In this document: piece by piece, positions 17,870 to 55,786 of the stretch
How the letters are laid out: each line of letters opens with the position of its first letter
Position numbering within the stretch: position 1 is the stretch's first letter
NCBI RefSeq assembly: GCF_016765695.1
Contig: NZ_JAETGO010000015.1
Coordinates: 1-55,786, forward strand
DNA length: 55,786 bases
Direction: 5' to 3'
Source of the DNA: Sporosalibacterium faouarense
Lineage (GTDB): Bacteria > Bacillota > Clostridia > Tissierellales > VENL01
Translations under genes and position numbers: made by a program
Notes under the pieces: generated by a model
Told to the model about the DNA's origin: nothing
The model's database searches: none
What the model saw: only the letters and a program-made list of their open reading frames with translations

Positions 17870-17880
17870 CATGATTTTCA

Positions 17881-18717: not shown

Positions 18718-18730
18718 ATTAGATGACAAC

Positions 18731-19021: not shown

Positions 19022-19023
19022 AT

Positions 19024-19119
19024 CTATAACCTCCTTAATTCTAACTTCTTATATTCTTCGTATCCATCTTTCCTCTTATTAAATATTCTTTCCATTTTAT
19101 TGATTTGATCGAACAACAT
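19024..19119 (-). CDS. Small ORF 1 of a tandem pair (31 residues)
   Basis: ATG at 19119 is preceded by AGGGAGGG at normal spacing; the stop is TAG, with two bases before the next start. The product begins MLFDQINKMERIFNKRKDG and ends EYKKLELRRL. It shares IFNK, D, G, EYKK and ELR with the second ORF in the same order. The close coupling, two good ribosome sites and a downstream terminator argue for a real dicistronic mRNA in what would otherwise be a 930-bp gap. Function unknown. Confidence 0.5.
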   Translation of the reverse strand: MLFDQINKMERIFNKRKDGYEEYKKLELRRL

Positions 19120-19546
19120 TATTATTCCCTCCCTAATTATAATTTTTCATGGAATTTATAGCCACTATTATTCAAGTTAAATCTCTATGTGAATGCAAGT
19201 AAATATTTAATTATTTATTTGTTGTTCTTAATATATTTAATTTATTAATTAAATTATTTAATATTCCTTTGTAATTACATTATATGGTTAGTAGTATCTA
19301 ATGTCAACCTTTTTTATTGATTTATTTAATGTTTTTATTAATAATTTTAATTATATATTTGATTTTAATTATTTTGACCTAAATTAATTAATAATATTTA
19401 AAAATATAAATAAATATTTTATTTGTATTATGTTTTGTCCCACAATATGCCAAATCATATAAATAGCAATTAGATATGACGACAAATTTCTTCAAAAAGT
19501 GTATAATAAAGTAAAATATAAAAATATTTACGGGGGTATATGTTAA
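19120..19546. other. Very AT-rich divergent spacer with SLH gene promoter
   Basis: About 430 bp of almost pure A/T runs between the minus-strand small ORFs and the plus-strand SLH gene. A TATAAT at 19502-19507 stands about 45 bases before the SLH start and probably is its -10; the matching -35 is weak (CGACAA). No coding signal. The composition may create curved DNA or an UP-element-like region. Confidence 0.5.
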
Positions 19547-20971: not shown

Positions 20972-20999
20972 ATTAGAAGTATTAAGGTTGGTGAACTAA

Positions 21000-35500: not shown

Positions 35501-35673
35501 TCTAAAGGTCCTGCTCCATCATAGGATGAAGATACAATAGCCACAGGAATCTCCATTTTAGGTAGCAAGTCTATTGGAATCCTAGTTAAAGAAACCACCC
35601 CTAATAGGATTACTATTAAAGTAACCATGACTATAGTAACAGGTCTTTTTACAGCCAAACTTGATAAATTCAT
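32545..35673 (-). CDS. RND-superfamily efflux transporter (HAE1/AcrB-like)
   Basis: A 1042-residue pump with the full RND layout: an N-terminal helix, the first large extracytoplasmic loop (about 35-330), helices 2-6, the second loop (about 550-850) and helices 8-12. Helix 4 carries GIGMLVDNSIVVLENIYR, the proton-relay Asp region in the VDNSIVV form common outside the AcrB branch. The internal duplication is intact, with no truncation. The start codon overlaps the adaptor stop by one base (TAATG). It should expel drugs or envelope lipids using proton motive force, together with the adaptor and TolC-like protein. Confidence 0.95.
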   Translation of the reverse strand: MNLSSLAVKRPVTIVMVTLIVILLGVVSLTRIPIDLLPKMEIPVAIVSSSYDGAGPLEMENLVTRPIEQSIATVSSIESVSSISSEGNSIVVAQFNYGTDMDFATLEMREKVDMVKGFLPEDSSDPMVMTIDPNAMPMMQVALSEGDSLESLQTIAEDTIKPRLERLEGVASVDIVGGYEKEIEIKLNESKLKGYGLSLDYIAQIIGAENLNMPVGEVGKGTKDLTVRTVGEFQSIEEIRELPIALQTGGTIRLSDVADISFGYKDVSSMSKTNGEESINITIQKESGSNTVSVADNVNQELDNLRQEISGIKIDTVLDQSEYIKQSIDSVLMNGLLGGILAILILFIFLRNFRTTIIIGTAIPVSIIATFTLIYFNDITLNLMTLGGLALGIGMLVDNSIVVLENIYRFRQEGYSRKEASIKGAKEVGMAVTASTLTTVAVFLPIVFVEGIASMIFKELALTVTMSLLASLVVSLTLIPMLSSKFLKVDMQQGEKHKSKFRLFSFIYDIFDKLFFGLEKLYKRLLGFSLKHRLIVIIAALVIFGGSMASILSVGAEFLPSTDEGQFSISVNLPVGAELEETNDIITEVEGKLENIDEIDILVSNVGSGGSMTMSVGGSGSNTGTIDGILIPLDERDRSVFEVADQVRDLVRDIPGAEISVNVTSTAMMGGLSGAPLQISIKGDEIDTLEDISKDFVDIVNSVEGTEEVESSIGEGIPEVQIVIDRIKASQYGLTAAQIASAVKSNIDGRVATRYKYEGSEIDIVVKGDDTFSQSISNMEQSSITTPTGATIPLSQVAKAQIERQPNSIDREDQVRVVTVSGQISGRDLKTVSDEVQAKFDEYDMPAGYSYEFGGENEELTDAFSDLSLALILAVILVFMILASQFESLLHPFTIILSVPIAFAGGALGLFVTGKTLSVPAIIGFIVLAGIVVNNAIVLVDYINTRRESGEQRNEAIKNAGPIRLRPILMTTLTTVLGLFPLALGVGEGAEIQAPMAIAVIGGLLLSTLLTLVFVPVVYTISDDLSRFFNRRILKRNEKVEA

Positions 35674-36812
35674 TATTTATCACCTCTTACTACCTTAACT
35701 TCACTACCATTCCCAACATAATTTTGCCCTTTTATAACAACTTTCTCAGCTTTACCTAATCCTGCTTTAATTTCTACATACATACCTTCATCTAATCCAG
35801 TTTCTACTTCTTTTTCCACTGCAGCATTATCTTCAACTACGTATACAAAAGTTTTATTATCTTTTTCTACCAAGGCATCTCCTTTTATAACAAGGACATT
35901 TTCTCTAACATCGGTTTTCAAGCTAACTTTAGCAAACATGCCTGGCATCACTTTATTATCTTCATTATCTATATATATTTTAACAGGATATAATTGTGTT
36001 CTAGCATCTGCTGTTGGATATATTTGATCTATCGTTCCAACAGTATCCCTTGATAAAGCATCAAAGCTTATTCTTACTTCCTGACCTTCTTCTATATTAC
36101 TTACGATATCTTCAGTAACATTTATTTGAACATATAGCTTATTTGCATCTATTATATTCATTGCAGGCTGAGCATTTGATGCAAACTCTCCTTCATCTAT
36201 ATTCATAGATGATACTGTACCACTCATAGGAGATGTGATTACTGTGTTATCCAATGCTTCCTTTGCCTGATTGTATGAAATTTGTGCCTGGTCTATTTGA
36301 GCCTGAGCTGCTTCCAATGGCTTATCTGATGCTGCAAGCTTAGCCTGTTCATACTGACTCTTAGATACTGCTCCTTGTTCATATAATGTTTGTGTTCTCT
36401 CAAGATTTGTCTTTGCATTTTCAATCTGTTCTTCATTAATAGCATAGCTTTTCTTCGCCGCATTTAAAGCTGCTTCTGCTTGATTAATCTGCTTTTGGAT
36501 ATCTTCTCTATCTAATGTAAATAGCACTTGCCCCTTAGAAACTTTATCACCTAGCTCTACCCTTATATCGGCTACTTTGCCCGGTGTTTTAGGTAATATC
36601 ATAATATCTTTGTTAGGGTGTACCTGACCGCTTATCGTAACTTCACGGAATATTGTATCTGTCTTTACACTTTCAATCTCAACTGGAACATAATCTTCTT
36701 TTTCAACTTCCTTTGCTCCATCATTATTGCTTTCACTACTACAACCCACAGTAAGCGTAAGTACTGCTGTTATTAAAATTAGAAATTTTATTAGTCTCTT
36801 TACCACATTCAT
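35673..36812 (-). CDS. RND/MFP membrane-fusion adaptor lipoprotein
   Basis: A 379-residue HlyD/AcrA-type adaptor. The lipoprotein signal ends in LTVGC (Cys24). Then come the beta-barrel/lipoyl start (VHPNKDIMILPKTPGKVADI), an alpha-hairpin (about 100-180, Gln/Ala-rich coiled coil), the second lipoyl half (VITSPMSGTVSSMNIDEGEF), and barrel and membrane-proximal domains. It sits between the TolC-like gene and the pump gene in the same transcript. In a monoderm cell it would be anchored to the outer face of the membrane. Confidence 0.93.
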   Translation of the reverse strand: MNVVKRLIKFLILITAVLTLTVGCSSESNNDGAKEVEKEDYVPVEIESVKTDTIFREVTISGQVHPNKDIMILPKTPGKVADIRVELGDKVSKGQVLFTLDREDIQKQINQAEAALNAAKKSYAINEEQIENAKTNLERTQTLYEQGAVSKSQYEQAKLAASDKPLEAAQAQIDQAQISYNQAKEALDNTVITSPMSGTVSSMNIDEGEFASNAQPAMNIIDANKLYVQINVTEDIVSNIEEGQEVRISFDALSRDTVGTIDQIYPTADARTQLYPVKIYIDNEDNKVMPGMFAKVSLKTDVRENVLVIKGDALVEKDNKTFVYVVEDNAAVEKEVETGLDEGMYVEIKAGLGKAEKVVIKGQNYVGNGSEVKVVRGDK

Positions 36813-36846
36813 GACCTCCCTAAGTTAAAATACATCTGATACTTTA

Positions 36847-38112
36847 TTACATTGAACCTCCCATAAGCATTATACCTTCACTTATTAATTCTAATTTACT
36901 CTTAGCAAGTAAATAGTTTATTTTGGCTTTATCTGATTCAAATTTATCCCTTTTTAATTGTTGCATCTCCATATCATATTGGAGTTCACTGATAGAACCT
37001 TGTTCATATCTAGCTTCTAGATTTTTTTCTTTTTCTATATAGTACTGATTGCTTACCTTTTTGACAAATAAGTCTAGTTTTTTAGTTTTAAAATCAAAAT
37101 ATGCTTGTTTTACATATAGCTCCATATCTCTCTCATTTATTTGCTTGTCTAATTCAGAATTTTTTAACTCTAATAGTGCTAGATTAACTTCATTTCCTTC
37201 AACATCATCATAGGCTTCATGACTTTTTTCTAAGATTATATCTTTAATTTCTATATTCTTTTCAAGGGAAGCTAATTCTAAACTGTTTTCTTTAAACTCA
37301 CTAATTAAATCAGCTAACGAATAATCCACACTTTCATCTACATCGCTTATTTCCCATTCAATATTTAACTCTTCCTCCACTGGCATATTAATTTTAGTCT
37401 TTAAGCTTTCCTTAGCCAGCTCTTTTTGATTTTCAAGTTGTTGTAATGTCAATTGCATTGTGTTGATAGTATCTTTAATGCTTTGTAACTCCTCATCCGT
37501 TGACATATCAAGCTCTTGCCTTGTCTTTTCTATTTCTTTCTGTTTATTTATATTTTCAATATCTGTTTTTAATAGCTCTATCTCTCGATTTAATATGTAT
37601 AAGTTATAGTAGCTATTTTTAAGCTCATTTTCTTCTGTAAGCTTTAATACTTCCTGTTGTCTATCTCCTTGTTCTATCTGAAGCTTAAGTTGCTCCATAG
37701 TACCAATTACTCCCATTTCTTGTTTAACAACATCCTTATACGCATCTAAAGTGCTCTCATAAATTTGCTCTCTCATATCTAGTTTAGCAAGCTCAAATTG
37801 TCTATCAGATTTCTTAGCTTTAAGATAAATTTCTCTAGCTTGTTCTTTATTTATCTTGGCTATTTCTAAGCTATCTCCAACATCTTCAACGGCCTCTTCT
37901 AAATCATCATAATCATCTAGCGACTTATCATATTTTAACTTCATAACTTTTGTATTATTATTCATCTTTAATATATCTAAATTTTCTTCATGTAATCTAT
38001 CTGTCAATTGTTTAAGATCATAGACCACATTATCATCTTCAGCATATGTACTCATGCTGGCTACTAGAGCAATCATAATAATTAATGCTATAAGAGTCTT
38101 TTTTCTATTCAT
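36847..38112 (-). CDS. TolC-like outer-factor homologue of a Gram-positive RND operon
   Basis: A 421-residue exported protein. The signal peptide is about 1-24; the rest is almost entirely helical coiled coil, with two similar halves as in TolC/OEP proteins (LREQIYESTLDAYKDVV in the first half, YVKQAYFDFKTKKLDLF in the second, and EARYEQGSISELQYDMEMQQ near the end, a classic OEP block). The start was moved three codons to the ATG with a spaced GAAAGGATG. The membrane-inserted strands of true TolC are hard to see. In a cell without an outer membrane it may span the wall. It is the first gene of the operon. Confidence 0.8.
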   Translation of the reverse strand: MNRKKTLIALIIMIALVASMSTYAEDDNVVYDLKQLTDRLHEENLDILKMNNNTKVMKLKYDKSLDDYDDLEEAVEDVGDSLEIAKINKEQAREIYLKAKKSDRQFELAKLDMREQIYESTLDAYKDVVKQEMGVIGTMEQLKLQIEQGDRQQEVLKLTEENELKNSYYNLYILNREIELLKTDIENINKQKEIEKTRQELDMSTDEELQSIKDTINTMQLTLQQLENQKELAKESLKTKINMPVEEELNIEWEISDVDESVDYSLADLISEFKENSLELASLEKNIEIKDIILEKSHEAYDDVEGNEVNLALLELKNSELDKQINERDMELYVKQAYFDFKTKKLDLFVKKVSNQYYIEKEKNLEARYEQGSISELQYDMEMQQLKRDKFESDKAKINYLLAKSKLELISEGIMLMGGSM

Positions 38113-38176
38113 TATATTCATCCTTTCTCTATTTTATATTGCATCTGCTAATAAAGATTTGCCACTATTAGTTTAA

Positions 38177-39044: not shown

Positions 39045-42000
39045 TTACTTCGGACTTACAGTAAGATTACTGAAGCTTTTAGCTTCATTACCAAATAAGT
39101 CAACCATAGGATTAGCTACTGAATTATCATAATCCAATGTAGGTGCGTCTGAATCTAATATATCACCGTCAAGAGTTAATATTACTTCATCATCATTAAC
39201 ATCTACATCAACTACATTTGGATTTGAAACAACACCATTTACAGTAAATGCATTAGTATCAATAACTACATCATCTATTTCTTCATCCATAGTTATTACT
39301 ATTTTAGTAACTCCATCATAGTCGCCATAAACCGCATCTACAACTGTTGAAACCATATTAACTTCGATTTCTTCTGCATCAATCTCTGCAAGAGTATTAT
39401 CTGACATATCTTTAATGTATTTCACGTCAGAAATTGTACTTACAGTAATCATACCATCGAATCCAGTATAGTCACCAATTAACGTTAATGTCGCTTCTGT
39501 AACAGAACCATCTTGATTAACATCTTCTAAAGCAAGTAAATAGTCAATACCAGCATCAAGTTCTTCACCATCTGCTTCTACTATTAAGTCAGATGCTGCG
39601 TAACTATCATTTTTAGCATAAATTTCTTCATTGAAGTTGATTGTGATTGTGTTATCACCATTATCAACAAGACCGTCATTAGCTACTCCATCTTCATCGT
39701 CGATTGGGTTAAGCTCAGGTGCAATTGCATCGTCAAGTCCTATGTTATTAAATACAATTTTTTCACCATAATCATTCATACTTACTACTTCATAATCTGA
39801 ATCATCATTAACTGAGATAGTTATAGTCTCATTATCAGTACCAACTGTACCTTCTGGGTTTAACTCTTCGTCTAATAATGTGAAGATGATTACACTGTCA
39901 CCATCATCATTAATAGTTTCGTCTATTGCAATTTCACCAAGGTCAAAAGTACCACTTGTTTCAATTACATAGTCTTCTTCTGCAAAATCATCAAGTGTTC
40001 CCTCTAGAGTTAATTCTAACTCAGTTGATGATACTGCTTCGAATGTATCAACGCCTATTGTACCAGTACTACCAATATCTAATGTATCCATAAGCTCTAC
40101 AGTCTTATTATCAAAAGCATCTGCTACTCTTGCTATTTCTAAGCTGTCGTCTCCACCTGCAAATTTATATTCAGCATCTTCAGTATCAAGTACGATTTCT
40201 ACTTTCTTACCGTCATCTGTAGCTGAGATAGATATTCCATCTTCAATATCAGAAAGTGATACCCATTCTCTAACTGCTGACCATCCGGAACCATCTGCTT
40301 CATATACTTCTACTCTATATTTTTCAAGGTCAAGCACTGAGTATTCACCATCAGTTGACATAGCCTCATCAAAGTTTATAACTAATGTTTGCTCTTTATC
40401 TCCATATAAAGTAGCTGAGAAATCAGCGAATAATGGACTAGTTACATCATCAACATCAAATTCATATGTTTCTTCGCCCATAGCATTTTCATAAATATCT
40501 TCAACATCTTCAATCACTAAAGCGTGTACTCCTGAGATATCATCTCTAAGAGTTAATTTAACTTGATCATTATCTTCTCCAGTAATTGTAGCTCTTCTGA
40601 TAATGCTCTTTATTTCGTCTCCGTCACTATCAAGAAGTGTATAGTTAGCTTCAGTTTCTGCTCCGCCTAATACTTCTTCGCTGAAAGTAACTTTTAATTC
40701 GTCTTGTGAAGTAGCTTCAACCTTTACGATTGATGGAGCTTCTGTATCTCCCTCTACTTCTATTTCTACTCTAATTTGTTGTGCATTTTCATTGCCCCAT
40801 AGGTCTTTTACAGCTTCTTTAGCAATGTAAACGTATACTGTACCTGAAGGCATTTTGTCAGCAGGATTGAATGATAATTTAAGCTCATTCTCTTCTATTG
40901 TAGGTGTAGCTTCTACTTTGTTCTTTGAATTAGTGTGATAGTAGTTTTCCTCATCAGTCTCTTCAAGAGCAATATCTTCATTGAATACTAATGTTACTGA
41001 GTATGGTTTAGCATCTTTGAAGTCAATAACTTCTGGAGCTTCTTCATCAATAACTACATCTAATTCAAATTCTTCTTTAACAACTGTATAACCAGCATAG
41101 TCTTTATACTCGTTATTTACAGTGAATGAATAAACTTCGCCATCTTCGAAATCTGAATAGAATTCAACTTTTGCTACTTTGTTGTTGTTTTCGAAAGTAA
41201 CATCACTAACGTATACAGTTTTACCGTTAGATTTTTCAAGTGAGAATCCTTTTCTTAGTTCAGATCTTGATAATCCATCAACGTTAACAGGCTCTGTGAA
41301 AGTAACCTTAACAGTGTCAACGCCAACTATTTCAGCGTCTACAACTTCTGGAATAGTCATATCAAGGAAGTCAATTCCTTCAATTGTAACTTCTTCAATT
41401 TCATTTTCATTTAAATCTAATATTTTTTCAATAGTAAGCTCTTTAGATGTTTGATTATCAACCTTAGTATCTAAAGTACCGATAACAGTTATTCCATCTT
41501 CTTGAAGCTCATATGTTCCAGCTAATGAATAATTATCAGCGTCTTCTGCTGAATCTTCATCAACTTTTGTTGTATAAACGATTTCTATTTGCTTTAAGTT
41601 AAGTGCAGTTACTGATGCTACAGCTAAATCAGCTTCATCAACTATAGCTGTAGCTAATGCAGTTAACTCAATTCCTTCAACTACACCTTCAATTGTTAAA
41701 TCTCCAGCTACAGTTGTATCATAGTCTGCCCAATCAACAGCTAATTCTTCAGTAGTTCCGTTGTCAAAAGTAACTTCTACTGTTTCTGGAAGATCTAATT
41801 CATCTCCATTAGCTACAGTTCCTAATTCAACAGCTGCTACTGAAACAGCAGTTTTTGGCATATCAACGTTTAATGAAGCAGCTAATGTACCGCTTCCGTC
41901 AGCCATATCAGCTTCTAAAGTGTTATAAACTATAGCAGCCATTATGCCTCTTGACGCATTACCTTCTGCTTCAACGTCACCCATGATTCCAGCTTCGATA

Positions 42001-42443
42001 GCCATTTCAGGAATATTATCTACTCCCCATTGTGGGTCATATCCTAAAGCTCTTAACATGAATATTTGAAGTTGCTCTACTGTTACTAAGTCAGTAGGGC
42101 CAAATGTTCCGTCTCCATAACCGTTAGTTAATCCCTTGTTATAAGCCCAAGAAATGAAAGACTCAAAGTAAGGGTGGTCTACGTCTGAGAAAGGAGATTC
42201 GAACTTAAAGTTCTCAGCCACTTGCTCTTCGCCCATTAGACGAGCAGTTAATACCATTAACGTTTGTCTGTCTAATGTAGCATTTAAATCTAAATTACCA
42301 TTTTCGTCGCCTTTTAATACACCAAGGCTTTTAAGAAGTTCTGCTTGGTTCGCATAGTCATTTTCATCTGCTGCTGCGAAAACAGGCGCGAAACTTCCTA
42401 GTACTAGTGATATCACAAGTACTAATGACAATACTTTCTTCAT
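39045..42443 (-). CDS. Probable major S-layer protein (SLH plus bacterial Ig-like domains)
   Basis: A 1132-residue exported protein. The signal peptide ends FAPVFA (about residue 23). Three SLH-like units follow (about 28-75 divergent, 80-135 with FSDVDHPYFESFISWAYNKG and NGYGDGTFGPTD, and 140-180). A long chain of SbsA-type Ig-like modules comes next, each with a phrase such as VKVTFTEPV, LVFNEDIAL, LKVTFSEEV or ININFNEEIY-like. I find no cysteine and very many Asp/Glu, as in crystalline S-layer proteins. Strong sigma-A promoter, long leader, perfect AAGGAGG and a strong terminator all point to heavy expression. Confidence 0.87.
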   Translation of the reverse strand: MKKVLSLVLVISLVLGSFAPVFAAADENDYANQAELLKSLGVLKGDENGNLDLNATLDRQTLMVLTARLMGEEQVAENFKFESPFSDVDHPYFESFISWAYNKGLTNGYGDGTFGPTDLVTVEQLQIFMLRALGYDPQWGVDNIPEMAIEAGIMGDVEAEGNASRGIMAAIVYNTLEADMADGSGTLAASLNVDMPKTAVSVAAVELGTVANGDELDLPETVEVTFDNGTTEELAVDWADYDTTVAGDLTIEGVVEGIELTALATAIVDEADLAVASVTALNLKQIEIVYTTKVDEDSAEDADNYSLAGTYELQEDGITVIGTLDTKVDNQTSKELTIEKILDLNENEIEEVTIEGIDFLDMTIPEVVDAEIVGVDTVKVTFTEPVNVDGLSRSELRKGFSLEKSNGKTVYVSDVTFENNNKVAKVEFYSDFEDGEVYSFTVNNEYKDYAGYTVVKEEFELDVVIDEEAPEVIDFKDAKPYSVTLVFNEDIALEETDEENYYHTNSKNKVEATPTIEENELKLSFNPADKMPSGTVYVYIAKEAVKDLWGNENAQQIRVEIEVEGDTEAPSIVKVEATSQDELKVTFSEEVLGGAETEANYTLLDSDGDEIKSIIRRATITGEDNDQVKLTLRDDISGVHALVIEDVEDIYENAMGEETYEFDVDDVTSPLFADFSATLYGDKEQTLVINFDEAMSTDGEYSVLDLEKYRVEVYEADGSGWSAVREWVSLSDIEDGISISATDDGKKVEIVLDTEDAEYKFAGGDDSLEIARVADAFDNKTVELMDTLDIGSTGTIGVDTFEAVSSTELELTLEGTLDDFAEEDYVIETSGTFDLGEIAIDETINDDGDSVIIFTLLDEELNPEGTVGTDNETITISVNDDSDYEVVSMNDYGEKIVFNNIGLDDAIAPELNPIDDEDGVANDGLVDNGDNTITINFNEEIYAKNDSYAASDLIVEADGEELDAGIDYLLALEDVNQDGSVTEATLTLIGDYTGFDGMITVSTISDVKYIKDMSDNTLAEIDAEEIEVNMVSTVVDAVYGDYDGVTKIVITMDEEIDDVVIDTNAFTVNGVVSNPNVVDVDVNDDEVILTLDGDILDSDAPTLDYDNSVANPMVDLFGNEAKSFSNLTVSPK

Positions 42444-42853: not shown

Positions 42854-44491
<1,638 letters not shown>

Positions 44492-44686: not shown

Positions 44687-46111
44687 TTATTTTTTTAATA
44701 CTTCTAGGGCTTTTTCTAATTGCATATCTTTAGTATTGTCAATTATATGAGTTTCTAAGGCCTTTACAAGGGCATCTTGAGTTGTATAATCAACTATTCC
44801 ATATGCAAATAACCCTTGCTCTTTTTGGAACTCCTTAACAGCATTTAAGCTTTCCTGATCCATTACTCCATCTGGCTCTTCCAATTCATAGCCTAATATA
44901 GTAAGAATCTGTTCAGTCGCTAATACATCTAAGCTTACACTATTAAGCTCTGGCTTGCTTTTCTTACTATATTTAGGTATGTCACTTAAGTCTATTTCAA
45001 ATTCAGCTGGTTTGTTTTCTACCACTATATCAGGGATTATTCCTTTACCATCTATAGAGCGCATTTTAGGAGTCAAATATTCCGCAACAGTTATCTTCAT
45101 TCCGCTCATCCCTTGAAGACTATATAATGGATATATAGTTTGAACTGTTCCTTTACCATAAGAAGTAGTTCCTATGATTGTTCCCACTCCCGTATCTTGA
45201 ATGGCACCTGCAAAGATCTCAGATGCACTGGCACTACCTTCATTTACTAATACAGCTACATCATATTTTGCTTTCTTTAAATGAGACTCTCGAGTTTCTA
45301 TTTCATCATCAGCATATTTTATATGTACTACTGGACCTTCTGTTATGAAGTATCCAAGTAGCTCGACAACTTCATCTAAATATCCACCAGGATTGTTTCT
45401 TAAATCAATTACTAGCTTTGTTATTTCTTTATTGTCCATCTCTTTTAGAGCTTTCTTCATATTGGATACAGTATGAGAGTTAAATTGAGTTATCTGAATA
45501 TATCCAATGTCTCCTTCCTTGATTTCATAGGATACTGGATTAATTTTTATAGTTTCTCTAGTTATATCAAAGTATAACATACTGTCATAGCCTTTTCTTA
45601 TAACTCCAATCCTTACAGCAGTACCTGAAGGACCTTTGATTAATTTGGCAGCCTGATCAGTGGTATAGCCCTCTATATACTGACCATCAACTGATGCTAA
45701 TTTATCTCCTGCCTTTAGTCCTGCTTTATCAGCTGGTGATCCTTGTATAGGTGTAACCACAGTTACAAAATCATCTTCTTCAACAATATAAACACCTATA
45801 CCATCGAAATCTCCTGATACATTCTCAAAGAGTTCATTAAATTCTTCTTCGTTATAGTAGCTACTATGTTCATCAAGGGAATCAAACATACCCCTAATAG
45901 CCGCTTCAGTCAATTCATCTAAATCTATATCATCTACGTATTTTGATTCCATAGTTTTAATCATGGATTTAATATATATCATATGTTTATCTAATTCAGC
46001 GTCGGGATTATCAGCTTCTCCATCTCCATATACAGGACTTATAATTAGAGATACCAGGATAAGTGTAAGTAATAATGCTGATATTTTCTTAAAATTTTTA
46101 CCAAATTTCAT
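44687..46111 (-). CDS. ctpA: S41-family C-terminal processing protease (CtpA/CtpB-like)
   Basis: A 474-residue exported protease. A signal peptide or membrane anchor (about 8-29) is followed by the N-terminal helical part, a PDZ domain (about 97-175, GIGVYIVEEDDFVTVVTP) and the S41 core. The nucleophile Ser lies in NEGSASASEIF (about 295) and the Lys in TTSYGKGTVQ (Lys320). A C-terminal peptidoglycan-binding-like domain covers about 400-470 (LTILGYELEEPDGVMDQES). The gene is the last of the operon, 12 bp after an SLH gene. Its place suggests that it trims or turns over the surface proteins encoded upstream; related proteases otherwise act in sporulation signalling. Confidence 0.93.
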   Translation of the reverse strand: MKFGKNFKKISALLLTLILVSLIISPVYGDGEADNPDAELDKHMIYIKSMIKTMESKYVDDIDLDELTEAAIRGMFDSLDEHSSYYNEEEFNELFENVSGDFDGIGVYIVEEDDFVTVVTPIQGSPADKAGLKAGDKLASVDGQYIEGYTTDQAAKLIKGPSGTAVRIGVIRKGYDSMLYFDITRETIKINPVSYEIKEGDIGYIQITQFNSHTVSNMKKALKEMDNKEITKLVIDLRNNPGGYLDEVVELLGYFITEGPVVHIKYADDEIETRESHLKKAKYDVAVLVNEGSASASEIFAGAIQDTGVGTIIGTTSYGKGTVQTIYPLYSLQGMSGMKITVAEYLTPKMRSIDGKGIIPDIVVENKPAEFEIDLSDIPKYSKKSKPELNSVSLDVLATEQILTILGYELEEPDGVMDQESLNAVKEFQKEQGLFAYGIVDYTTQDALVKALETHIIDNTKDMQLEKALEVLKK

Positions 46112-46123
46112 TTAATTGCCCCC

Positions 46124-47602
46124 TTAATAGTATTTAATAATATTGTCTACATAGTCCTTCTTCAAATCCTCTTGTAAGTAGCTTATAAATCTATTAACAA
46201 ATGTTGCAGCCTCTGCCTTCGTCATAATATCATTGGCATGAATATACCCATCATACCCTTCAGCTATACCTAGCTTTTCTGCAACATAAACTGATTTTTT
46301 AGCCCATACTGGAATATTAGCATCGTCTTTAAACTTGGTTTCAAAAGGGAGATTTGGAGCTAAATTTTCTAAGCCTAAAGCCCTAATTACAATAGTGATT
46401 GCTTCGCCTCTTGTTAATTCCTTATCAGGATATAGCTTACTACCATCACCATTCATAATGCCATTCTCTTTTATGGCTTTTACATATTTATAATTTGGAT
46501 CATCCTTACTAACATCACTAAATACAGCCATATCGTCATTAGGCTTAGTATAGGATCTTTTAACCTCTTTTTCTTCCTCTACTAAATTCATAGCACTGGC
46601 AATCCATTTTGCGAAATCTATTCTCTTTGTTGGTGTGTCTGGTCCAAAATATTGTTGATTTTGATCTGTTATTTTTAATCCAGCTATTCTATTTATATCA
46701 CTCTCTGCCCAATGACCATTTACATCGTTATATTTAGGTATAAATAGTTTTTGCTGAGTTGGTAAGGTCTCAAATTTCCCTTGACCATTTCCCCGTTCCC
46801 TTGAAATGGTAGGTAGTCCTTCTTCATCAAAGGTAGGTAAATTATAATCATAGGACATAATCGTCTCTTCCTGCTCTGTTAATGTATATCCACTACTAAA
46901 GCTAGTTTGAAAAGGTAGGTTGTTGAAGTACTCCATTCTCTTGGTTCTATTAAAAGCTACATCTACATCGGCATATCCAAACCATTCAACAGGCTCATCT
47001 CCAGTAGTCTGTTGGTATGAGATGTCTTTATGGAGCTTTTGTCCTTCTGTTGCTCCCCAATAATGGTCATACCCATATATTTCTCCAGTTATCTCAACTA
47101 CGATTTTTCCTTGATTTTCGTTTACAGAGTAGGTTTTAGTTCCTAACCAGTTTCCTGCATAATAGTCAACAACAGGTTGCTTATCATCTATTGAAGAATT
47201 ATGGAACTGATAATCATTTAATGTATAGGTTTGTCCATTCGTTACTATCTCTTCATCATAATCAACTATATTATTTGTTTCCACTATTTGCTTACTATGA
47301 GAAGTGTCATCTATGATTCTCTCAAGTTCTATTTCCCTTTCTAACGTAACAGTTCCATCATCATTAGATAGTATATATTCATAGGTAAGGTCATCATCAT
47401 CTACATCTATTTCAACTGTACCTTCTAGTAAAACAGGTTGTCCAGTTAGAAATATCACTTCCTTATATTGTTTTACATCATTATAATCCTGTTCATTCTT
47501 ATGAATTCCGCCTTCGAATCCAGCATTATTAATCGTGGCATTTGCAGTTACTGGAATTATGAGCATTAAAGCAATCAGTATTACACTAAATTTTCTTTTC
47601 AT
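46124..47602 (-). CDS. Surface protein with C-terminal SLH domains
   Basis: A 492-residue exported protein. A signal peptide (about 1-22) precedes a unique N-terminal domain of about 270 residues, beta-rich with many Asp/Tyr/Thr. Three SLH units sit at the C-terminus (about 290-345 with YNDVNGHWAESDINRI, 355-415 with GDGSKLYPDKELTRGEAITI, 420-485). The SLH at the C-terminal end is the reverse of the other SLH proteins in this window. AAGGAGG precedes the ATG; the gene lies 25 bp after one SLH gene and 12 bp before ctpA. It belongs to the same operon. Confidence 0.87.
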   Translation of the reverse strand: MKRKFSVILIALMLIIPVTANATINNAGFEGGIHKNEQDYNDVKQYKEVIFLTGQPVLLEGTVEIDVDDDDLTYEYILSNDDGTVTLEREIELERIIDDTSHSKQIVETNNIVDYDEEIVTNGQTYTLNDYQFHNSSIDDKQPVVDYYAGNWLGTKTYSVNENQGKIVVEITGEIYGYDHYWGATEGQKLHKDISYQQTTGDEPVEWFGYADVDVAFNRTKRMEYFNNLPFQTSFSSGYTLTEQEETIMSYDYNLPTFDEEGLPTISRERGNGQGKFETLPTQQKLFIPKYNDVNGHWAESDINRIAGLKITDQNQQYFGPDTPTKRIDFAKWIASAMNLVEEEKEVKRSYTKPNDDMAVFSDVSKDDPNYKYVKAIKENGIMNGDGSKLYPDKELTRGEAITIVIRALGLENLAPNLPFETKFKDDANIPVWAKKSVYVAEKLGIAEGYDGYIHANDIMTKAEAATFVNRFISYLQEDLKKDYVDNIIKYY

Positions 47603-47627
47603 ATGTCAACCTCCTTTCAATGATATT

Positions 47628-50330
47628 TTACTCAGCTATTATTATATGTCCCTCATTATCTTTTCTTATAATATATAGACTATCATCGTCCTCTATATTA
47701 TCTAAGGTTGTTTTTCTGCCATTTTTAATGAGTATAGCATTTTCTACCTTTAAATCAAATTCTGAAGTATTTATATTCCATTTCTGTCTAAAGTCACTCC
47801 AATCCTTTAATTCCTTTATAGCTATTGTACTGTTACTTGAATCTACACTATCTACCCTTGCAGATGTAATTATTTCTTCTCCATTAAAGTCATCAACAAT
47901 ATCTATTGCTGATACCATATTATCATACTCTATAACATAAGCGTTCTCTTCTAGAAAATTATCTCTTTCCATATCATAACCAAATCTTGTATTGCCTCCT
48001 GTATAAAATCTATTATTGTTAAAGGTATTAACTGAAACCTCTATAAGTTCTTCATCTCTTGTATCAACGATTTTCGTCTCCTCACTGATTTGAAGCTTAG
48101 CATAATTAGATTTACTTGTCCATTTATTATTTTCTAAAATATCATATTTCTTTAAATCAAAGGCATAGTTATAGATATCTTTAATTTCGCCCTTGTATAT
48201 CTTTGCAGCCATGTCATTTGGAGTCTCTACTGAGATAAAAGCTGCGGTATTATTGCTACCTTGGGTAATTACAAACAGCTCCTCATCTAATCTCAAGTTA
48301 TATGGGTCAATTAACCTTCCATTCTTTTCGATAATGGTACTTTCATCAAAGGCCATATTGTTATAATCAACCCTTAGTTTATTATCACCATAGGTTATTC
48401 TTTGAAGCTTATTGTAAAACTGCTTCTCATATCCATTCTTAAATACTATCTTTGATGCTTCCTCTTCGCCAAACCTATTATTGGTAACTATATATATTTC
48501 TTTACCGATATTATTACTCAAATCATTCTCAGAAACCTTTCTTCCATCAATATAGATTTCAGCATTGCCCCCTAAAGACATCTTCATATCTCCAACCCTA
48601 TCACTCCATTGAGAATAATTAAAGTAAGCTATATCTGTCAAAAGTAGTTCATCTCTACTGGGATTATATCTATTTAGCCTTGCCTTAATAAAATTCTCCA
48701 TTTGTCTATCGGGACTAGCAATGTATACTTTACTAGGACTATTTCCATTGTATGAATCAAATTCTAGTCTAACCATGTCTCCTTCTCTAATGCTTCTTAG
48801 ACTTAGATATTCATTTTCTTTAATGATTGATGTGCTTGGAGATATTTCAAACTCCAATCTTGTGTCCTCATCCATGATTATAATACTATCATTATTTAGA
48901 TCTGTTTCCAACACCTTGCCTATATATATCCTACCTCCAGGTTCAATATATCCTGGAGTTCCTGTGTCTAATTCTCCCCTTATGCTTTCTATATTACCAT
49001 TGCGTATATCTAAAGTAACTTCAAGTCCATAGATCATATCTTTTAATCCAACAGGTAACCCATTTATACTCATCTTTGCTGCAGGATTTATTTTATACAA
49101 ATATGTATTGTCATCATAATCCATAATAGTTATGGTATTATTTTCTTCATCAATTTTTTCAACAAATCCCTCTATTTGTGTCTCAGGCTTATTCAACACC
49201 TCTAAAAATACTGCTTGATTATCAGGATTGATATAATATTTTACATAGTCATGGGATTCTATCCCATCTGGCCATATTGGCTCTTTATTTTTTATACCTA
49301 CAAACCCATTATCATAAAGTGAGTCATCAGATGCTTGAGCTATTACGTTTATGTAAGTATCATCGTCAGACCCTATTGACAATACTATTTCTTCTATTTT
49401 TACTCCATCTTGAGATTTAATTGACTTATCTTTATCTTCAACGATTCCAGTCCCAATTTTAAATCCTCTGTCTAGTAGGAAGCTTTCATATATATTATCT
49501 AATAACCTTGCCATCTCTCCCCTTGATATCGTACCATTAGGTTTAAAATTCCCTTGAGCATTCCCATCCATAATTCCTTTTTGAAGTATGGCTTCTATAG
49601 CAGGAATATTGGTGGTTTTAATCTCTTCGTAGTCATTTAAGTTATATATGCTATGCTGATCTTCTCCATATATAGGCTCAAGATTTAGTACCCTATATAT
49701 CCACATGGCCATTTGCTCCCTTGTTACTGGCTTTTCCCAAGTATATTTTTTTTCTGTCTTTTCTTCCAATTCAGCTCTAATGGCATCTAATTGATTAAAT
49801 GTTAAATTTTCATCGTCTAAATATTGACCATAGGACTCTTCCACTTCATAATCAATTTCATCTTGTTCTTCAGGGGTTAAAGTAGTTATATAATCTACTT
49901 CTTCAGGAGTTATTATATTTTGATTTTGAGCCTCTGTGGTATATCCTTTAGTCCACTGGTCAAAATGGTTTAGAATCACATATCCACCTGTATCTTCATT
50001 GGCAATGCTTTCTTCTCCTAACTTTTGGGCCTCTTCTTCTAGACCCATAAGTCGTACTAATAAAGCAATTCCCTGGTCCCTAGTAAGGGGAGTATTGGGA
50101 TAAAAGCCGTCTCCCATCCCCTTGATGATAGAAAGGGCACTCATTCTTGAAATTGAGTCTTGAGCCCAATGTCCATCTATATCTGGAAAATTAATATTTC
50201 CATATAAATCCCTATAGGTGGATATTCCATAATAGGTTTCCTCTGCTACCGCTCCTTGAACAAATATAGATGTTGGGAATAAAGTTAAAACAACTGTTAC
50301 AATCATTATTATTGATATGGCCTTTTTCAT
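47628..50330 (-). CDS. SLH-domain protein with DUF5666-like repeats
   Basis: About 900 residues, exported. A signal peptide (about 1-28) is followed by three SLH units in the first 290 residues (FPDIDGHWAQDSISRMSALS; QWTKGYTTEAQ; AQGNFKPNGTISRGEMARLL). The second unit is interrupted by a Glu-rich insert of about 70 residues. Then come several beta repeats of 60-75 residues with GFVEKIDEENNTITIMDYDD, YIGKVLETDLNNDSIIIMDE and SIREGDMVRLEF, similar to those in the SLH protein at 10359. The start is the ATG at 50330, spaced from AAAGGGTGA. The gene is preceded by the TIG giant with a 26-bp gap. Confidence 0.88.
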   Translation of the reverse strand: MKKAISIIMIVTVVLTLFPTSIFVQGAVAEETYYGISTYRDLYGNINFPDIDGHWAQDSISRMSALSIIKGMGDGFYPNTPLTRDQGIALLVRLMGLEEEAQKLGEESIANEDTGGYVILNHFDQWTKGYTTEAQNQNIITPEEVDYITTLTPEEQDEIDYEVEESYGQYLDDENLTFNQLDAIRAELEEKTEKKYTWEKPVTREQMAMWIYRVLNLEPIYGEDQHSIYNLNDYEEIKTTNIPAIEAILQKGIMDGNAQGNFKPNGTISRGEMARLLDNIYESFLLDRGFKIGTGIVEDKDKSIKSQDGVKIEEIVLSIGSDDDTYINVIAQASDDSLYDNGFVGIKNKEPIWPDGIESHDYVKYYINPDNQAVFLEVLNKPETQIEGFVEKIDEENNTITIMDYDDNTYLYKINPAAKMSINGLPVGLKDMIYGLEVTLDIRNGNIESIRGELDTGTPGYIEPGGRIYIGKVLETDLNNDSIIIMDEDTRLEFEISPSTSIIKENEYLSLRSIREGDMVRLEFDSYNGNSPSKVYIASPDRQMENFIKARLNRYNPSRDELLLTDIAYFNYSQWSDRVGDMKMSLGGNAEIYIDGRKVSENDLSNNIGKEIYIVTNNRFGEEEASKIVFKNGYEKQFYNKLQRITYGDNKLRVDYNNMAFDESTIIEKNGRLIDPYNLRLDEELFVITQGSNNTAAFISVETPNDMAAKIYKGEIKDIYNYAFDLKKYDILENNKWTSKSNYAKLQISEETKIVDTRDEELIEVSVNTFNNNRFYTGGNTRFGYDMERDNFLEENAYVIEYDNMVSAIDIVDDFNGEEIITSARVDSVDSSNSTIAIKELKDWSDFRQKWNINTSEFDLKVENAILIKNGRKTTLDNIEDDDSLYIIRKDNEGHIIIAE

Positions 50331-50356
50331 CTGATTCACCCTTTCTATCTAATATT

Positions 50357-53300
50357 TTATTTTTTATTAAGAATTACATATTTGCCTGAATTAAATATAG
50401 TCGCCTTTACCTTATGCATATATTTAACTAGCTTGTAGTCGAAGAAAGTATCCGCCGTTGAGCTTTCTTCATCCATCTTATTGGTTTCTACATTATATCT
50501 ACCCATATATAGATTATCACTTGTTATATTTCCTTTATCAATCTGAATTTGGAAATCCATGCTATTTTTTAAATTAAATACCTCTTCTGTTTTCCTTTGC
50601 TGGAAAATAAATTCTATGCTATAAGCATAGGACACAGCTTCTTCCTTTCTACTGATATTCTTTGCTATCCTATCAGTCTCTGCATCACTAAGTCTATTTA
50701 TCCTAATCTTAACATTTGTATCCTCTAAATCATCTCCCTTATAGAAAACACTGTTTTCTATATTATGCAAAGATACCTCAGCATCTATATATTGGGTTTT
50801 AATAACTACATTTCCATTTATCCTTCTAGTAACTGCCAGAGGAAGGGTTACTTCTATATTTCCATATTCATTATATTTGGAATCCCTAAGGTCTATAGTA
50901 TATTGCTCCTCAGTATAGAAGTTAGGAAGTATTACAGATACGTTATTATTTGAATAGTCTATCTTCGTTTTAGTTTCTCTGCTCTCAGAATACTTTCCAT
51001 CACCTTGGTCTTGATACGCTGTTAATGTGGTTGTATATGCCCAGTCATATCTTGGTGACTCGCCATAGTCATTTACAGCCCAGAGTCTAAAATAATACTT
51101 TGTATCTACTTCTAAATCCTTTACTCTATACTCTGTTCCTGAGGTTTCTCCAAGGAATGTAAATTCTTCATCATCATACCTATAATAGCTATCCTTATCC
51201 TCTATAGCCTTAACTGCAAATATCTTATATCTGTGAGCCCTTTCCGATTCATTCCATTTAAGAATAATAGAACGCTCATTTCCCGCTACAGCCTTAAAGC
51301 CCGTTGGTACATCTGGGTAAGGAAAAATGTATCTAATATTATAGGTTGCACTTCCACCATCTGTATTTTCTACTTTTAGAGTCTGAGGTCCTTCCTCTTC
51401 ATTAGGAAGAGTTATTATTTCTATCCTTGTATCACTTATCCTATTTACTTCTTGTACAGTCTCATCGTCAATAGTTACCTGTACTCCTTCCATAAACATT
51501 GTACCCCTAATAACTAGTTCTTCTCCACCTGTTGTATGTATATGGTTAGGAGAAACATCAGTGATTGTTGGACTTGAGTAGTATGTGAATCCACCTTCAA
51601 GGGTCGTTTCACCTAAAGGTTCTTTGTTCATAATATATACGTCCACTGGCCCTAGTACATCACTGGATGGTAATCTAACTGATAATTCATCTATTGTAGA
51701 ACCACGTCTTACTGATGCTACTTTATCACCAATCTTAACTATTACATTGCTTAATCCATTATTTACTGCAAAGTTCTTACCTGTAATGGTTATTATGTCT
51801 CCACCTTCTACACTACCTTTATTTGGCTTAACTTCTTCTATTTCAGGAGTACTTCCTCCAATATCCCTATATACATAATATATTGGTTTATCTAATGTAG
51901 GGTCTGCCGATGTAACTGAACCTACATCACTAACCTCCACAGTTATTAATAATGGTTGGTCTGGTTCTACGTTAGCTGGAATTCCTTTTGACCTCACTCT
52001 AATACTATCACTTGAAATCCCATTAGGAAGTATTTCTGCTTCCTGTCCTCCGATTTTAACTGTTAATGGCTCTTGGAATCCGCTACCTTCAATAGTAAAT
52101 GTCATCCCACCGTCAACTGTAGATTCAATTATATAATAACTATTTACTCCATCATCAATCTCTTTCTTCTCTATAACATCGGTTATATCATCCATTCTAA
52201 GCTCTACTATAGGATTTGTATATTGGAACTTTTGGTTTGCAATTGCAGTATTACCATCTGGATTTATAACTGTAATTGTTACTCCCGTTGGTGATATTGT
52301 ATAGTATGAAGGTGACCAAACTTGAAGTTGTCCAGCCCTCAATAGCTCTGTTGAAGGAGAATAACCCCTCTCAACAAAGATCGCCTTATCCTTATCATCA
52401 ACTACAACCTTAATTAACTCGTATCCATTATAGTATTCTGTTGGGTCATCTGTGTTTTTCAAGGTACTTACATCTATATATCTGGTTATCTTGTTTGTTG
52501 TATGACTAAGATCAAAGTTTCTTTCATACTCCACAGTTTCTCCAGATATCTTTTCAGATATATTCATGGTCAACTGTTGTGTCTGCCCATTATAGTTAAC
52601 TGTTAATCCACCACTAACAGTCATTTCCGTTGTACGAGATACCATAATATCCTCTTCTTCAGATATTTCATCAAATCTAACCTGTACCATTTCCTTTCTT
52701 GTGGTTACTATATTCCCCGATCCATCATCCTCTAAAATATCTAGAGCACTATTATTAAAGTTTTCACCATGAATTTCCATATATGTTTTCCCCTTCTTAG
52801 TACCTGTAGATGGATCAACTCTATTTATTTTAGGAAACTTTGGTATATAAGTATATTTCACTGTATTTGAAACTCCATGGTCATTATTTGTTAAATAAAC
52901 ATCTGCATCCTCTCTCAAGTCGGTTGGAATTTTAACAAGGATATATCCCTCTTGATATTCAACTATTTCTGCAACAGTTTCACCTATATATACTTTAGGT
53001 AAAACAGCTAATATATCCTCTAAAGTCTCTCCTGGGTTTAATATAGTTGGATCTATTCTATCGCTATAATCGTCATATTGACCATTGCCATTTACATCTA
53101 TATAAGTCTCATTTGCAGATATATCACTATCATATTTAGCATTTCCATTTTTATCATCAAAGGGTTCTTTATATCTAAAATCATCCCCTATTACTTGAAG
53201 ATATCTTTCATCTACACTACCTCTATCTATTTCATTTATACTCCAAATTTCAGGGTGACTGGTTGGCGTCACATAAGTAAATCCATCTTCTTTACTGTCA

Positions 53301-55786
53301 CTACCACCATCAGAGTTCAGAACCACTACAGGAACTGTCAATCTGTCTAATCCTAGTTCCTCTTTTATATCAATGGGATACTCGGGCACTGTAACAGTTA
53401 TCCTATCTCCACTTGACCATACTGTAATGTTTTCTTGAGGCACTTCCATACCATCGATAATAACCTTACTTTGAATTATTTCTGTATCGTCTTTTTCCTT
53501 ATATTCAAAATTCTCACCATAAATATCAATATCATATCCACCATTCACTGACCCTTCTGAAGGTGATATTTCATTTATTACTGGTTTGTTTAAAGGTCTT
53601 TCAGAAAAATAAAATCCATCTTCCACTTCAACCCTTTTAATGTCAGGGTTAACTACTGTTACATCATACCATCCTTCACCAGGTAATATAGGTACTGTAA
53701 CATATATTTGTTTCTTACTTTTTACTTTAACTCTATTACCAATGATTACATCATCACCATCTTCATTCTGAGCTATCTCGTATGGTGTTCTTATACGTAA
53801 CTTTGTTCCATCATTAAGTTCAATATGAGAATTAGTTATAGTTACATCTTGACTAGATTCAGATTCTTTCTTCAATTTAAGATTTCCACTCTCAACTAAA
53901 ATTGTGAAATTATTGTCTACTCCATCGGTTAATACAGGTGTTTGTCCATCCTCTACATCTATAGTATAGAAATTATTAATTAGAGTGCCTGTCCCATCTT
54001 CCTCTTGTAAAACAATACTATGATAATAGTCAGCAAGCTTTACATGACCGTCCTCAACTGTTACCAATTGTTTTTCAGCGGATGGAGCGATATAATCTTT
54101 TAGAACTATTTTATCGGTCATATCATCTCGATTATATTTATTTATTTCTTCTCCATCAAATAGTACTCTGGTACCTATCAGCTTATACATTCCCATTTCT
54201 GTTTGGGGATTAGCTGTTGGATCTGGCTTCAAGAAATTATCTCCGTCGATAATAACTAGAGTATTGGCCATACCTTTTTCAGGAGATATGCCTATAACCT
54301 CTGGGTCAGTATAGGTTTTAACATATATGAAGTCATGTACTGCGATCCCACCATCATCATTCATTAATAAAAGCTGAGTTTTACCTTCTCTACCTGGTGG
54401 GCAGATAAAGTTTAGACCCCTACCATTTCCTTCTCTTTGTACTCCATTTACTTCTTCACCATCTATATATACCTTAATTCCTTCTCTGAAGTTACTACCA
54501 GTTACTATGATTTCTTCATCTCCATTTATCGTAACTATATAAGGCTCTACAGTTGCAATCTTAGGAGCATCTTCATCATCAACTCTTATAAAGTTAACTG
54601 TTCCTTCATCCCAAGGCTCTATATCTTCAGTATTTCTTATTGGGTTTGTTACCCTAAGCCTTATATCCTTTATAACATATTCCTCCGACACAATTGAATC
54701 AGATATTACACTTCCCTTTGGTATCTTTACTATGATTTTAGATCCAATCTCATTACCGATTGACCCGTCTAGTATTCTACCTTCATCATTCAATACGAGA
54801 AGTTCTACATCTACATTAGATACTCCATCATGGTCTGTAATAGTATTATCGTTTTTGTTTATTATTAGTTCATCTTCAATATTAATTACTGGATATCTAG
54901 TATGTTGCTGATTAGATTCATCCTTATAACTATGAATTAAGAAGTCTCTACCATGAATAGCTAAATATATATCTTCACTAACTTCAAACGTGCCATCTAC
55001 AGCTGATTTTTCCTTAACCATAATCTTATTTGGGTTTATTTCATCTATGGTTGGTGTTATTCTACTTGGAATAAATGTAAATCCATCGAATTCTTCCCTT
55101 TCCTCAAATCTATATGGAACTCCCGTTCCATCTTCTGTAAATGTTGTAATCGTTGTTACAATAACATTTTCTCTTCGAAGATCGTCATAAAGAGTTAAAG
55201 ATGGAGTCTTTACAAATATTGTGTCTGAGTGGGTTGAGAAGTTACCTAAATCGTTTTTTCCATCTTCAAAGGTTGCATCTGATGCAATAAATACACTTAT
55301 GGTTTTCTTTATATTATTAACTGTCTTTCCATTATACTCGCCTGTTCCATAATTCATAACAAGCTCAGTCTTATTATTTTCAGAGCTTAAGGCTCTCGAA
55401 TCTATATCATCAATAATTAAGTCATTAATATTAATCGTTCCAAAATACTTACCATTTATTTCTACACTTTGTCCAGTATCTGGACCTTGATCTGGCTCAA
55501 TATTATATATCTGAACATTGTCATCTCTACTTATAACTGTAAAGGTCCTTCCTTCTAAGAGCTTTTCCTTTGTTATTACCCTTTCAGGATCTTTATCATC
55601 TTCCACCTTATTAGTAAACACAATCAAATAATCCTGTCCAACTTCTAAGGTTTCTGGTATTTCAACTGAAAATTGGTCATAAAATACTCCTGGAGATACT
55701 TCTTCAGCATCCTTTTTATATGTTGTATTTATACCTTTATTAGTTTGCTTATATACCTCTGTACCATCATATCTAGTAAGAAAAAA
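50357..55786 (-). CDS. Giant IPT/TIG-repeat surface protein, partial at the right edge
   Basis: At least 1809 residues. The frame stays open to the window edge, so the signal peptide and N-terminus are outside and the TTG at 55627 is not the start. I count about eight IPT/TIG (Ig-like) modules with phrases such as INEISPSEGSVNGGYDIDIY, INRVDPSTGTKKGKTYMEIH, IEEVKPNKGSVEGGDIITIT and VSPNHIHTTGGEELVIRGTMF-like. There is a double EF-hand-like stretch (DDKNGNAKYDSD and DVNGNGQYDD), one fibronectin type III domain near the C-terminus (VPTGFKAVAGNERSIILKW) and a final beta domain of about 200 residues. No SLH or LPXTG occurs at the C-terminus. It is the first visible gene of a four-gene operon with two SLH proteins and CtpA. 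Confidence 0.88.
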   Translation of the reverse strand, partial: FFLTRYDGTEVYKQTNKGINTTYKKDAEEVSPGVFYDQFSVEIPETLEVGQDYLIVFTNKVEDDKDPERVITKEKLLEGRTFTVISRDDNVQIYNIEPDQGPDTGQSVEINGKYFGTININDLIIDDIDSRALSSENNKTELVMNYGTGEYNGKTVNNIKKTISVFIASDATFEDGKNDLGNFSTHSDTIFVKTPSLTLYDDLRRENVIVTTITTFTEDGTGVPYRFEEREEFDGFTFIPSRITPTIDEINPNKIMVKEKSAVDGTFEVSEDIYLAIHGRDFLIHSYKDESNQQHTRYPVINIEDELIINKNDNTITDHDGVSNVDVELLVLNDEGRILDGSIGNEIGSKIIVKIPKGSVISDSIVSEEYVIKDIRLRVTNPIRNTEDIEPWDEGTVNFIRVDDEDAPKIATVEPYIVTINGDEEIIVTGSNFREGIKVYIDGEEVNGVQREGNGRGLNFICPPGREGKTQLLLMNDDGGIAVHDFIYVKTYTDPEVIGISPEKGMANTLVIIDGDNFLKPDPTANPQTEMGMYKLIGTRVLFDGEEINKYNRDDMTDKIVLKDYIAPSAEKQLVTVEDGHVKLADYYHSIVLQEEDGTGTLINNFYTIDVEDGQTPVLTDGVDNNFTILVESGNLKLKKESESSQDVTITNSHIELNDGTKLRIRTPYEIAQNEDGDDVIIGNRVKVKSKKQIYVTVPILPGEGWYDVTVVNPDIKRVEVEDGFYFSERPLNKPVINEISPSEGSVNGGYDIDIYGENFEYKEKDDTEIIQSKVIIDGMEVPQENITVWSSGDRITVTVPEYPIDIKEELGLDRLTVPVVVLNSDGGSDSKEDGFTYVTPTSHPEIWSINEIDRGSVDERYLQVIGDDFRYKEPFDDKNGNAKYDSDISANETYIDVNGNGQYDDYSDRIDPTILNPGETLEDILAVLPKVYIGETVAEIVEYQEGYILVKIPTDLREDADVYLTNNDHGVSNTVKYTYIPKFPKINRVDPSTGTKKGKTYMEIHGENFNNSALDILEDDGSGNIVTTRKEMVQVRFDEISEEEDIMVSRTTEMTVSGGLTVNYNGQTQQLTMNISEKISGETVEYERNFDLSHTTNKITRYIDVSTLKNTDDPTEYYNGYELIKVVVDDKDKAIFVERGYSPSTELLRAGQLQVWSPSYYTISPTGVTITVINPDGNTAIANQKFQYTNPIVELRMDDITDVIEKKEIDDGVNSYYIIESTVDGGMTFTIEGSGFQEPLTVKIGGQEAEILPNGISSDSIRVRSKGIPANVEPDQPLLITVEVSDVGSVTSADPTLDKPIYYVYRDIGGSTPEIEEVKPNKGSVEGGDIITITGKNFAVNNGLSNVIVKIGDKVASVRRGSTIDELSVRLPSSDVLGPVDVYIMNKEPLGETTLEGGFTYYSSPTITDVSPNHIHTTGGEELVIRGTMFMEGVQVTIDDETVQEVNRISDTRIEIITLPNEEEGPQTLKVENTDGGSATYNIRYIFPYPDVPTGFKAVAGNERSIILKWNESERAHRYKIFAVKAIEDKDSYYRYDDEEFTFLGETSGTEYRVKDLEVDTKYYFRLWAVNDYGESPRYDWAYTTTLTAYQDQGDGKYSESRETKTKIDYSNNNVSVILPNFYTEEQYTIDLRDSKYNEYGNIEVTLPLAVTRRINGNVVIKTQYIDAEVSLHNIENSVFYKGDDLEDTNVKIRINRLSDAETDRIAKNISRKEEAVSYAYSIEFIFQQRKTEEVFNLKNSMDFQIQIDKGNITSDNLYMGRYNVETNKMDEESSTADTFFDYKLVKYMHKVKATIFNSGKYVILNKK

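Follow-up and report, generated by a model that had tools for sequence, protein, structure and literature searches.

A conserved clostridial gene set for two SLH proteins, a giant TIG-domain protein and a CtpB-like protease

The locus and its four proteins

The stretch of DNA analysed here (55,786 nt in full, hereafter the window) makes up an entire contig, C86, of an assembly of 4.12 Mb in 99 contigs. Four reading frames on its minus strand were located exactly where a first-pass annotation had placed them. These encode a giant protein with TIG and fn3 domains (50357-55786; 1809 aa, the frame being open at the contig end), a protein with SLH repeats at its N terminus (SLH903; 47628-50330 from an ATG, or to 50339 from a GTG), a protein with SLH repeats at its C terminus (SLH492; 46124-47602, 492 aa) and a protease (CtpA; 44687-46111, 474 aa) with S41, PDZ and PG_binding_1 domains in a CtpB-like architecture, all domains being assigned by Pfam. 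The opposite placement of the SLH anchors in the two proteins agrees with what had been claimed, as do the intergenic gaps of 26, 25 and 12 bp when SLH903 is taken to start at the ATG. A single terminator-like hairpin was found 3' of ctpA (44664-44633, minus strand) and none within the three gaps, as had also been proposed; pyrG (CTP synthase; 42854-44479, minus strand), a frequent downstream neighbour of these genes, lies past the hairpin in the window. Note that the hairpin scan gave 9 hits over the entire scanned stretch against 5.0 expected from shuffling, and that a promoter scan did no better than chance, with 73 hits against an expected 72.5.

The TIG gene continues on contig C47, which brings the full protein to about 2,085 aa and bears out the earlier minimum of 1809 residues. 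The missing part was located with the N-terminal portion of a related TIG protein (locus L032) as genome query, residues 11-285 of that protein matching the end of C47 and residues 287-315 the end of the window; the C47 frame supplies 274 aa, the 5' part of the gene. Uncut relatives range from 1,786 to 2,228 aa. The protein is composed of TIG repeats, one fn3 domain and a C-terminal beta-rich region. The N terminus of the L032 protein resembles a signal peptide, as judged by eye, and no anchor family was detected in the full TIG proteins of three relatives (E 0.01). A sulfatase-family gene lies upstream of the 5' part on C47. The two contigs, C47 (at its end, L087) and C86 (at window position 55786), seem to abut within the TIG gene, and the assembly could be extended there.

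In SLH903, two Pfam SLH stretches precede a C-terminal body (residues 372-900) that was predicted as a chain of OB-like domains (pLDDT 84.6, pTM 0.65), its repeated strand-helix-strand units in the model reading as OB-like. The body matched the OB-fold protein CusF (Z 9.7, 3.0 Å over 78 residues) and the S-layer self-assembly domain of Viridibacillus arvi (Z 8.2, 2.7 Å over 70 residues, 20% identity), the latter chain being also the top PDB profile match of SLH903 (E=0.031). On the scale of the tool used, where the typical best score for models without a clear match is Z 7-8, the V. arvi match is modest and the CusF match lies above. The DUF5666-like repeats once ascribed to this protein find little backing in sequence: PF18914 matched one of 31 alignment members (E=0.0048) and not the window protein.

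SLH492 consists of an N-terminal hydrophobic, signal-like stretch, a beta-meander N-domain, three C-terminal SLH repeats and a conserved tail helix, and was modelled with AlphaFold2 at a mean pLDDT of 84.3. Its SLH part, covered by three Pfam stretches, superimposes on the SLH domain of Bacillus anthracis Sap (Z 19.3, 2.8 Å over 173 residues), so that the Pfam stretches and the fold match together describe three SLH repeats forming a binding trimer. SLH matches were obtained in 33 of 34 SLH492 alignment members, the remaining one probably being L041, which is cut by a contig end. Because only 22 of 31 SLH903 members carry SLH matches (9 do not), SLH492 is taken as the constant anchor. The source genome holds one PF04230 pyruvyl-transferase gene (E=1.2e-44), a type of enzyme that SLH ligands require, from a family that occurs also in genomes without SLH; the presence of this gene, together with the match of SLH492 to solved SLH trimers, makes SLH-mediated wall anchoring plausible.

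The N-domain of SLH492 (residues 42-285; 46748-47479, minus strand) matched no Pfam family above cut-off, and a PDB sequence search with its profile returned nothing up to E=1. Its 12 long strands were predicted to form a meander resembling outer-membrane barrels, and all 37 structural matches listed are outer-membrane barrels by title. The best match listed was CymA (Z 13.8, 5.2 Å over 211 residues), and LpxR was matched with Z 11.6 and 3.7 Å over 180 residues; Foldseek scores for such barrels were weak, with non-barrels listed too. The alternating lipid-facing hydrophobic strands of an outer-membrane beta-barrel were not seen: averaged over 34 alignment members, 3 of 12 strands are at least 70% hydrophobic on one face, the 70% yardstick being our own and applied here to the N-domain alone. 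By residue count, the window N-domain has a net charge of -32.

The protease carries the PDZ and S41 core of a C-terminal processing protease, with matches to PF03572 (E=5.6e-53), to the Pfam PDZ domain and to TIGR00225 (320 bits; cut-off 218.6). Its catalytic triad, S295/K320/Q324, is invariant among 31 aligned cluster members and is spaced as S309/K334/Q338 of Bacillus subtilis CtpB. The best solved match was CtpB itself (PDB 4C2C), to which the window protein aligns over residues 37-471, including the N- and C-terminal dimerisation regions; the CtpB_N-like match is barely above cut-off, and the tail is missing from some cluster members. The tail had been regarded as peptidoglycan-binding. 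It aligns with the C-terminal part of CtpB, a dimer-forming motif that, in the portion of the structure paper drawn on here (PMC3808539), is likened to a peptidoglycan-binding domain 'despite distinct function'. A peptidoglycan-binding role was rejected, as the CtpB structure, to the extent described in that portion, explains the tail better.

Six S41 matches were found in the source genome. The other strong one lies on contig C83, where the Ctp-type gene comes after genes resembling ftsE and ftsX and one for a hydrolase-like protein of peptidase type (names read from translations). In a phylogenetic tree, the 31 cluster Ctps, those of loci L091, L092 and L093 and the ftsEX-side copy of the source genome form a group of 35 rows (support 100/97), and 17 other tail-bearing Ctps fall apart from it. 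The ftsEX-side copy lies inside the cluster Ctps with weak support (87/61), and an exclusive cluster clade was rejected on this account.

Gene order and the second Ctp protease

Gene neighbourhoods were surveyed at 68 loci, comprising 15 found by the TIG protein within the order, 33 named ones found with the SLH492 N-domain and 20 chosen from class and phylum searches. Removal of six duplicates, recognised as repeated contigs by their equal lengths, left 62, and the SLH492 frame was called in 60; it was missed in L023, where the contig ends first, and in L073, where a longer opposite frame took precedence in the ORF filter. Rather than chance-level co-occurrence, the survey revealed a fixed order, and the proposed set survived it. 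SLH903 was present in 58 of the 60 loci (the exceptions being L040 and, at a contig edge, L033) and preceded SLH492 on the same strand in 58/58, with a gap of -60 to 300 bp in 57 and a median of 24 bp. The TIG gene preceded SLH903 on the same strand in 47/47 loci, with a gap in that range in 46 and a median of 36 bp; 13 of the 58 loci yielded no TIG gene, and in three of these 13 a contig end cuts the locus. Ctp and SLH492 shared a strand in 34/34 loci, the gap being at most 60 bp in 14 and at most 300 bp in 19 (median 111 bp). In L040 the Ctp gene lies upstream of SLH492, and in 26 of 60 loci none was called within the fetched stretch. Conservation of these tightly spaced, co-directional genes as a set goes far beyond chance, and in these respects the coherent four-gene set first proposed held. 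One culturable relative with the set is Thermohalobacter berrensis (L035). Its membership had to be qualified, however: the near-invariant core is the SLH903-SLH492 pair, and TIG and Ctp are common, not universal. A literature search of open-access PMC found no earlier description of this operon.

Among 120 genomes of the order, 16 have the TIG C terminus, and among 391 sampled genomes of the class, 66 have the SLH492 N-domain (36 genera out of 223), the source genome being counted in both. In G139, G399 and G433 the N-domain was matched as two pieces at contig edges. The module is usually present in a single copy, one genome of the phylum sample (G785) having two SLH492 copies. A strong TIG C-terminal match, defined as E at most 2.4e-36 (the next, at 1.5e-15, covers the fn3 part only), was obtained in 22 of the 391 class genomes, all of them among the 66 with SLH492, leaving 44 without. 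At phylum level, the full SLH492 profile matched 208 of 398 genomes, a count that was set aside, many rows covering the SLH part only.

The linkage of the protease was then quantified with a profile of the 31 cluster Ctps, run against 80 module genomes: apart from the source genome, all 65 in the class sample that have SLH492, plus 15 from the TIG search of the order (including G049, where SLH492 itself is unseen as the contig ends). Rows of at least 411.8 bits, plus that of G016 at 286 bits, were counted as a second Ctp, and lower rows were taken, by our own choice, as the housekeeping copy. So defined, a second Ctp was present in 69 of the 80 genomes (five of the 69 without the tail) and absent from 11. 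One (G049) could not be placed, two were on another contig and 66 were on the same contig as the module, 58 within 2.5 kb, six within 10 kb, one at 10.03 kb and one at 2.9 Mb (G441). Distances in the 65 class genomes were measured from the N-domain match, which overstates the gap.

As a control, 79 of 306 SLH492-negative class genomes were taken by regular thinning, two of them added by hand. A tail-bearing Ctp was present elsewhere in 25 of the 79, so the protease is not confined to genomes with the module. The difference is large, not exact, as kinship is ignored: 69/80 with the module against 25/79 without (Fisher p 1e-12), or 64/80 against 25/79 for tail-bearing Ctps alone (p 6.5e-10, likewise large, not exact, with kinship ignored). 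Of the 20 loci fetched for these 25 control Ctps, 18 had no member of the surface-protein trio. L091 holds an SLH492 piece at a contig edge and is really a positive, its genome being left among the negatives, and the SLH-only matches in L103 and L104 belong to other proteins. In several SLH492-negative genomes (L094-L110) the tail-bearing Ctp gene is preceded by frames of roughly 270, 150 and 565 aa; going by size, we would guess these to be an NAD kinase-argR-recN run. In a Schnuerera locus (L052), a 986-aa FG-GAP-repeat protein is encoded between SLH492 and Ctp (11431-14391), and frames of similar size occupy that place in L043, L046, L053 and L054.

A candidate wall-anchored assembly and its alternatives

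One interpretation of these data, which we hold to be on balance probable, is that the locus is a conserved clostridial wall-anchored envelope operon, with SLH proteins, a TIG giant and a CtpB-like protease acting on a partner. SLH492, and in most lineages SLH903 too, would be secreted and bind a pyruvylated wall polymer through the SLH repeats, and the OB-like body of SLH903 would serve as an assembling or connecting part; both roles are read from domain content and fold matches. The TIG giant, likewise taken to be secreted, may be held by one of the SLH proteins as an outward stalk or lattice element, as its lack of a recognisable anchor and the constant gene order suggest. Contacts among the surface proteins are likewise presumed. 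Finally, the second Ctp, a CtpB-like protease whose gene lies within the operon or close to it, could trim or remove one surface protein outside the membrane, a role to which gene linkage and an intact active site point. The wall-anchored assembly with CtpA envisaged in the first-pass annotation fits the conserved linked set, the plausible SLH anchoring and the second Ctp that is usually adjacent; it does not extend to every locus, as TIG and Ctp are not universal.

It could be instead that the TIG-SLH903-SLH492-Ctp-pyrG order is ancestral and that the protease is an unrelated gene left in place. This passive synteny is a tentative option, unlikely and still to be reckoned with, as pyrG is often kept near too (SLH492 with pyrG in 20 loci), is found without Ctp in L026, L037, L059, L062, L078 and L082, and in L093, from an SLH492-negative genome, adjoins a tail-bearing Ctp that belongs to the cluster group in the absence of the trio. 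Against it, Ctp accompanies SLH492 with pyrG unseen in the fetched stretch in loci such as L042, L044, L045, L048, L049 and L069-L071, close spacing of at most 60 bp is far commoner for SLH492-Ctp (14/34) than for Ctp-pyrG (1/14), and a second Ctp is commoner in genomes with the module, by the counts given above. A role in sporulation, with the protease as the clostridial CtpB and the surface proteins as a coat or mother-cell structure, would agree with CtpB being the best solved match and with a modest enrichment of SpoIVA, which was found in 58 of 66 SLH492 genomes, the source genome included, against 220 of 325 others (Fisher p 6e-4). We consider it improbable all the same: 220 of 278 SpoIVA genomes lack SLH492, and SLH proteins are normally vegetative wall proteins. 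A sporulation-only role was rejected, as two near-complete genomes without a SpoIVA match (G377 and G441, 99 and 100% complete) carry SLH492, TIG and a second Ctp, that of G441 being the distant copy.

The barrel-like N-domain raises the further idea of a cryptic two-membrane cell in which SLH492, in the manner of Deinococcus SlpA or OmpM, would be a wall-tethered barrel of the outer membrane. The titles of the listed structural matches and the OEP-family protein in an efflux gene set downstream speak for this, but the Tissierellales are regarded as single-membrane, and the few hydrophobic strand faces and the charge of the N-domain do not suit a membrane barrel, which was rejected on strand-face composition. 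The SLH repeats also lie at the opposite end relative to SlpA, as far as the part of the SlpA paper drawn on here describes it (PMC9388160), and we give this idea very little credence. Another thought, speculative and in our view rather unlikely, is that the N-domain forms a beta-barrel with the up-and-down topology known from outer-membrane proteins, but soluble and tethered to the wall of a single-membrane bacterium. There it might act as a gate, pore ring or hydrophobic-ligand cup in the surface layer, with SLH903 and TIG as the other components and a dedicated Ctp for maturation. With no Pfam family above cut-off and with the outer-membrane barrels listed above as its solved matches, the domain is a good structural target.

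To return to the envelope operon, it represents a conserved variant among SLH-anchored surface systems and has a CtpB-like protease alongside. It shares the SLH trimer fold and a multi-domain beta body with the S-layer proteins Sap of B. anthracis, SpaA of P. alvei and that of V. arvi, whose self-assembly domain resembles one domain of the SLH903 body. It differs from them in having two SLH proteins, an unanchored TIG giant and a protease, usually in one copy. SlpA and OmpM, as outer-membrane-to-wall connectors, likewise join SLH to a barrel-like beta domain; in SLH492 the strands are not membrane-like and the domain order is reversed with respect to SlpA, within the part of PMC9388160 cited. 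CtpB has the same domain order and triad spacing as the window protease, but its known substrate is SpoIVFA in sporulation, whereas the window ctpA belongs to an operon of surface-protein genes. Prc-NlpI and CtpA-LbcA are examples of Ctp proteases paired with envelope partners, and the first-pass view that CtpA relatives normally act in sporulation or photosystem processing is too narrow given these pairs. The window protease would resemble them in acting on envelope proteins; the difference is that an adaptor lipoprotein was not recognised at the window operon. SLH proteins have mostly been studied singly, and the locus offers a conserved module in fixed order with a protease usually adjacent. 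With its partners defined, one can ask how the clostridial wall retains large proteins that have no anchor, and whether, outside sporulation, surface structures are matured by Ctp proteases.

Other genes in the window

Further surface genes are present elsewhere in the window. Just after pyrG (39045-42443, minus strand) lies the gene for another SLH protein, whose Ig-like domains are of the Big_4 and Big_5 types, and several relatives encode proteins with a similar N terminus close to pyrG or to the trio. A region of surface genes (10359-27254) contains two more SLH proteins (10359-12347 and 19547-20971), a transglutaminase-like protein (12464-14797), an MBOAT/DHHW pair (15135-17869) and a protein of 2084 aa that matches PKD below threshold (21000-27254). 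The protein encoded at 30314-31825 (minus strand) has a metallo-beta-lactamase fold and a Cu_amine_oxidN1 domain and matches a lamin tail below threshold. An RND efflux set, consisting of an AcrB-type pump, an HlyD-type adaptor and a TolC-like OEP protein, lies at 32545-38121 (minus strand), which is odd for a presumed single-membrane cell; in L078 an AcrB-type pump gene is located between SLH492 and pyrG.
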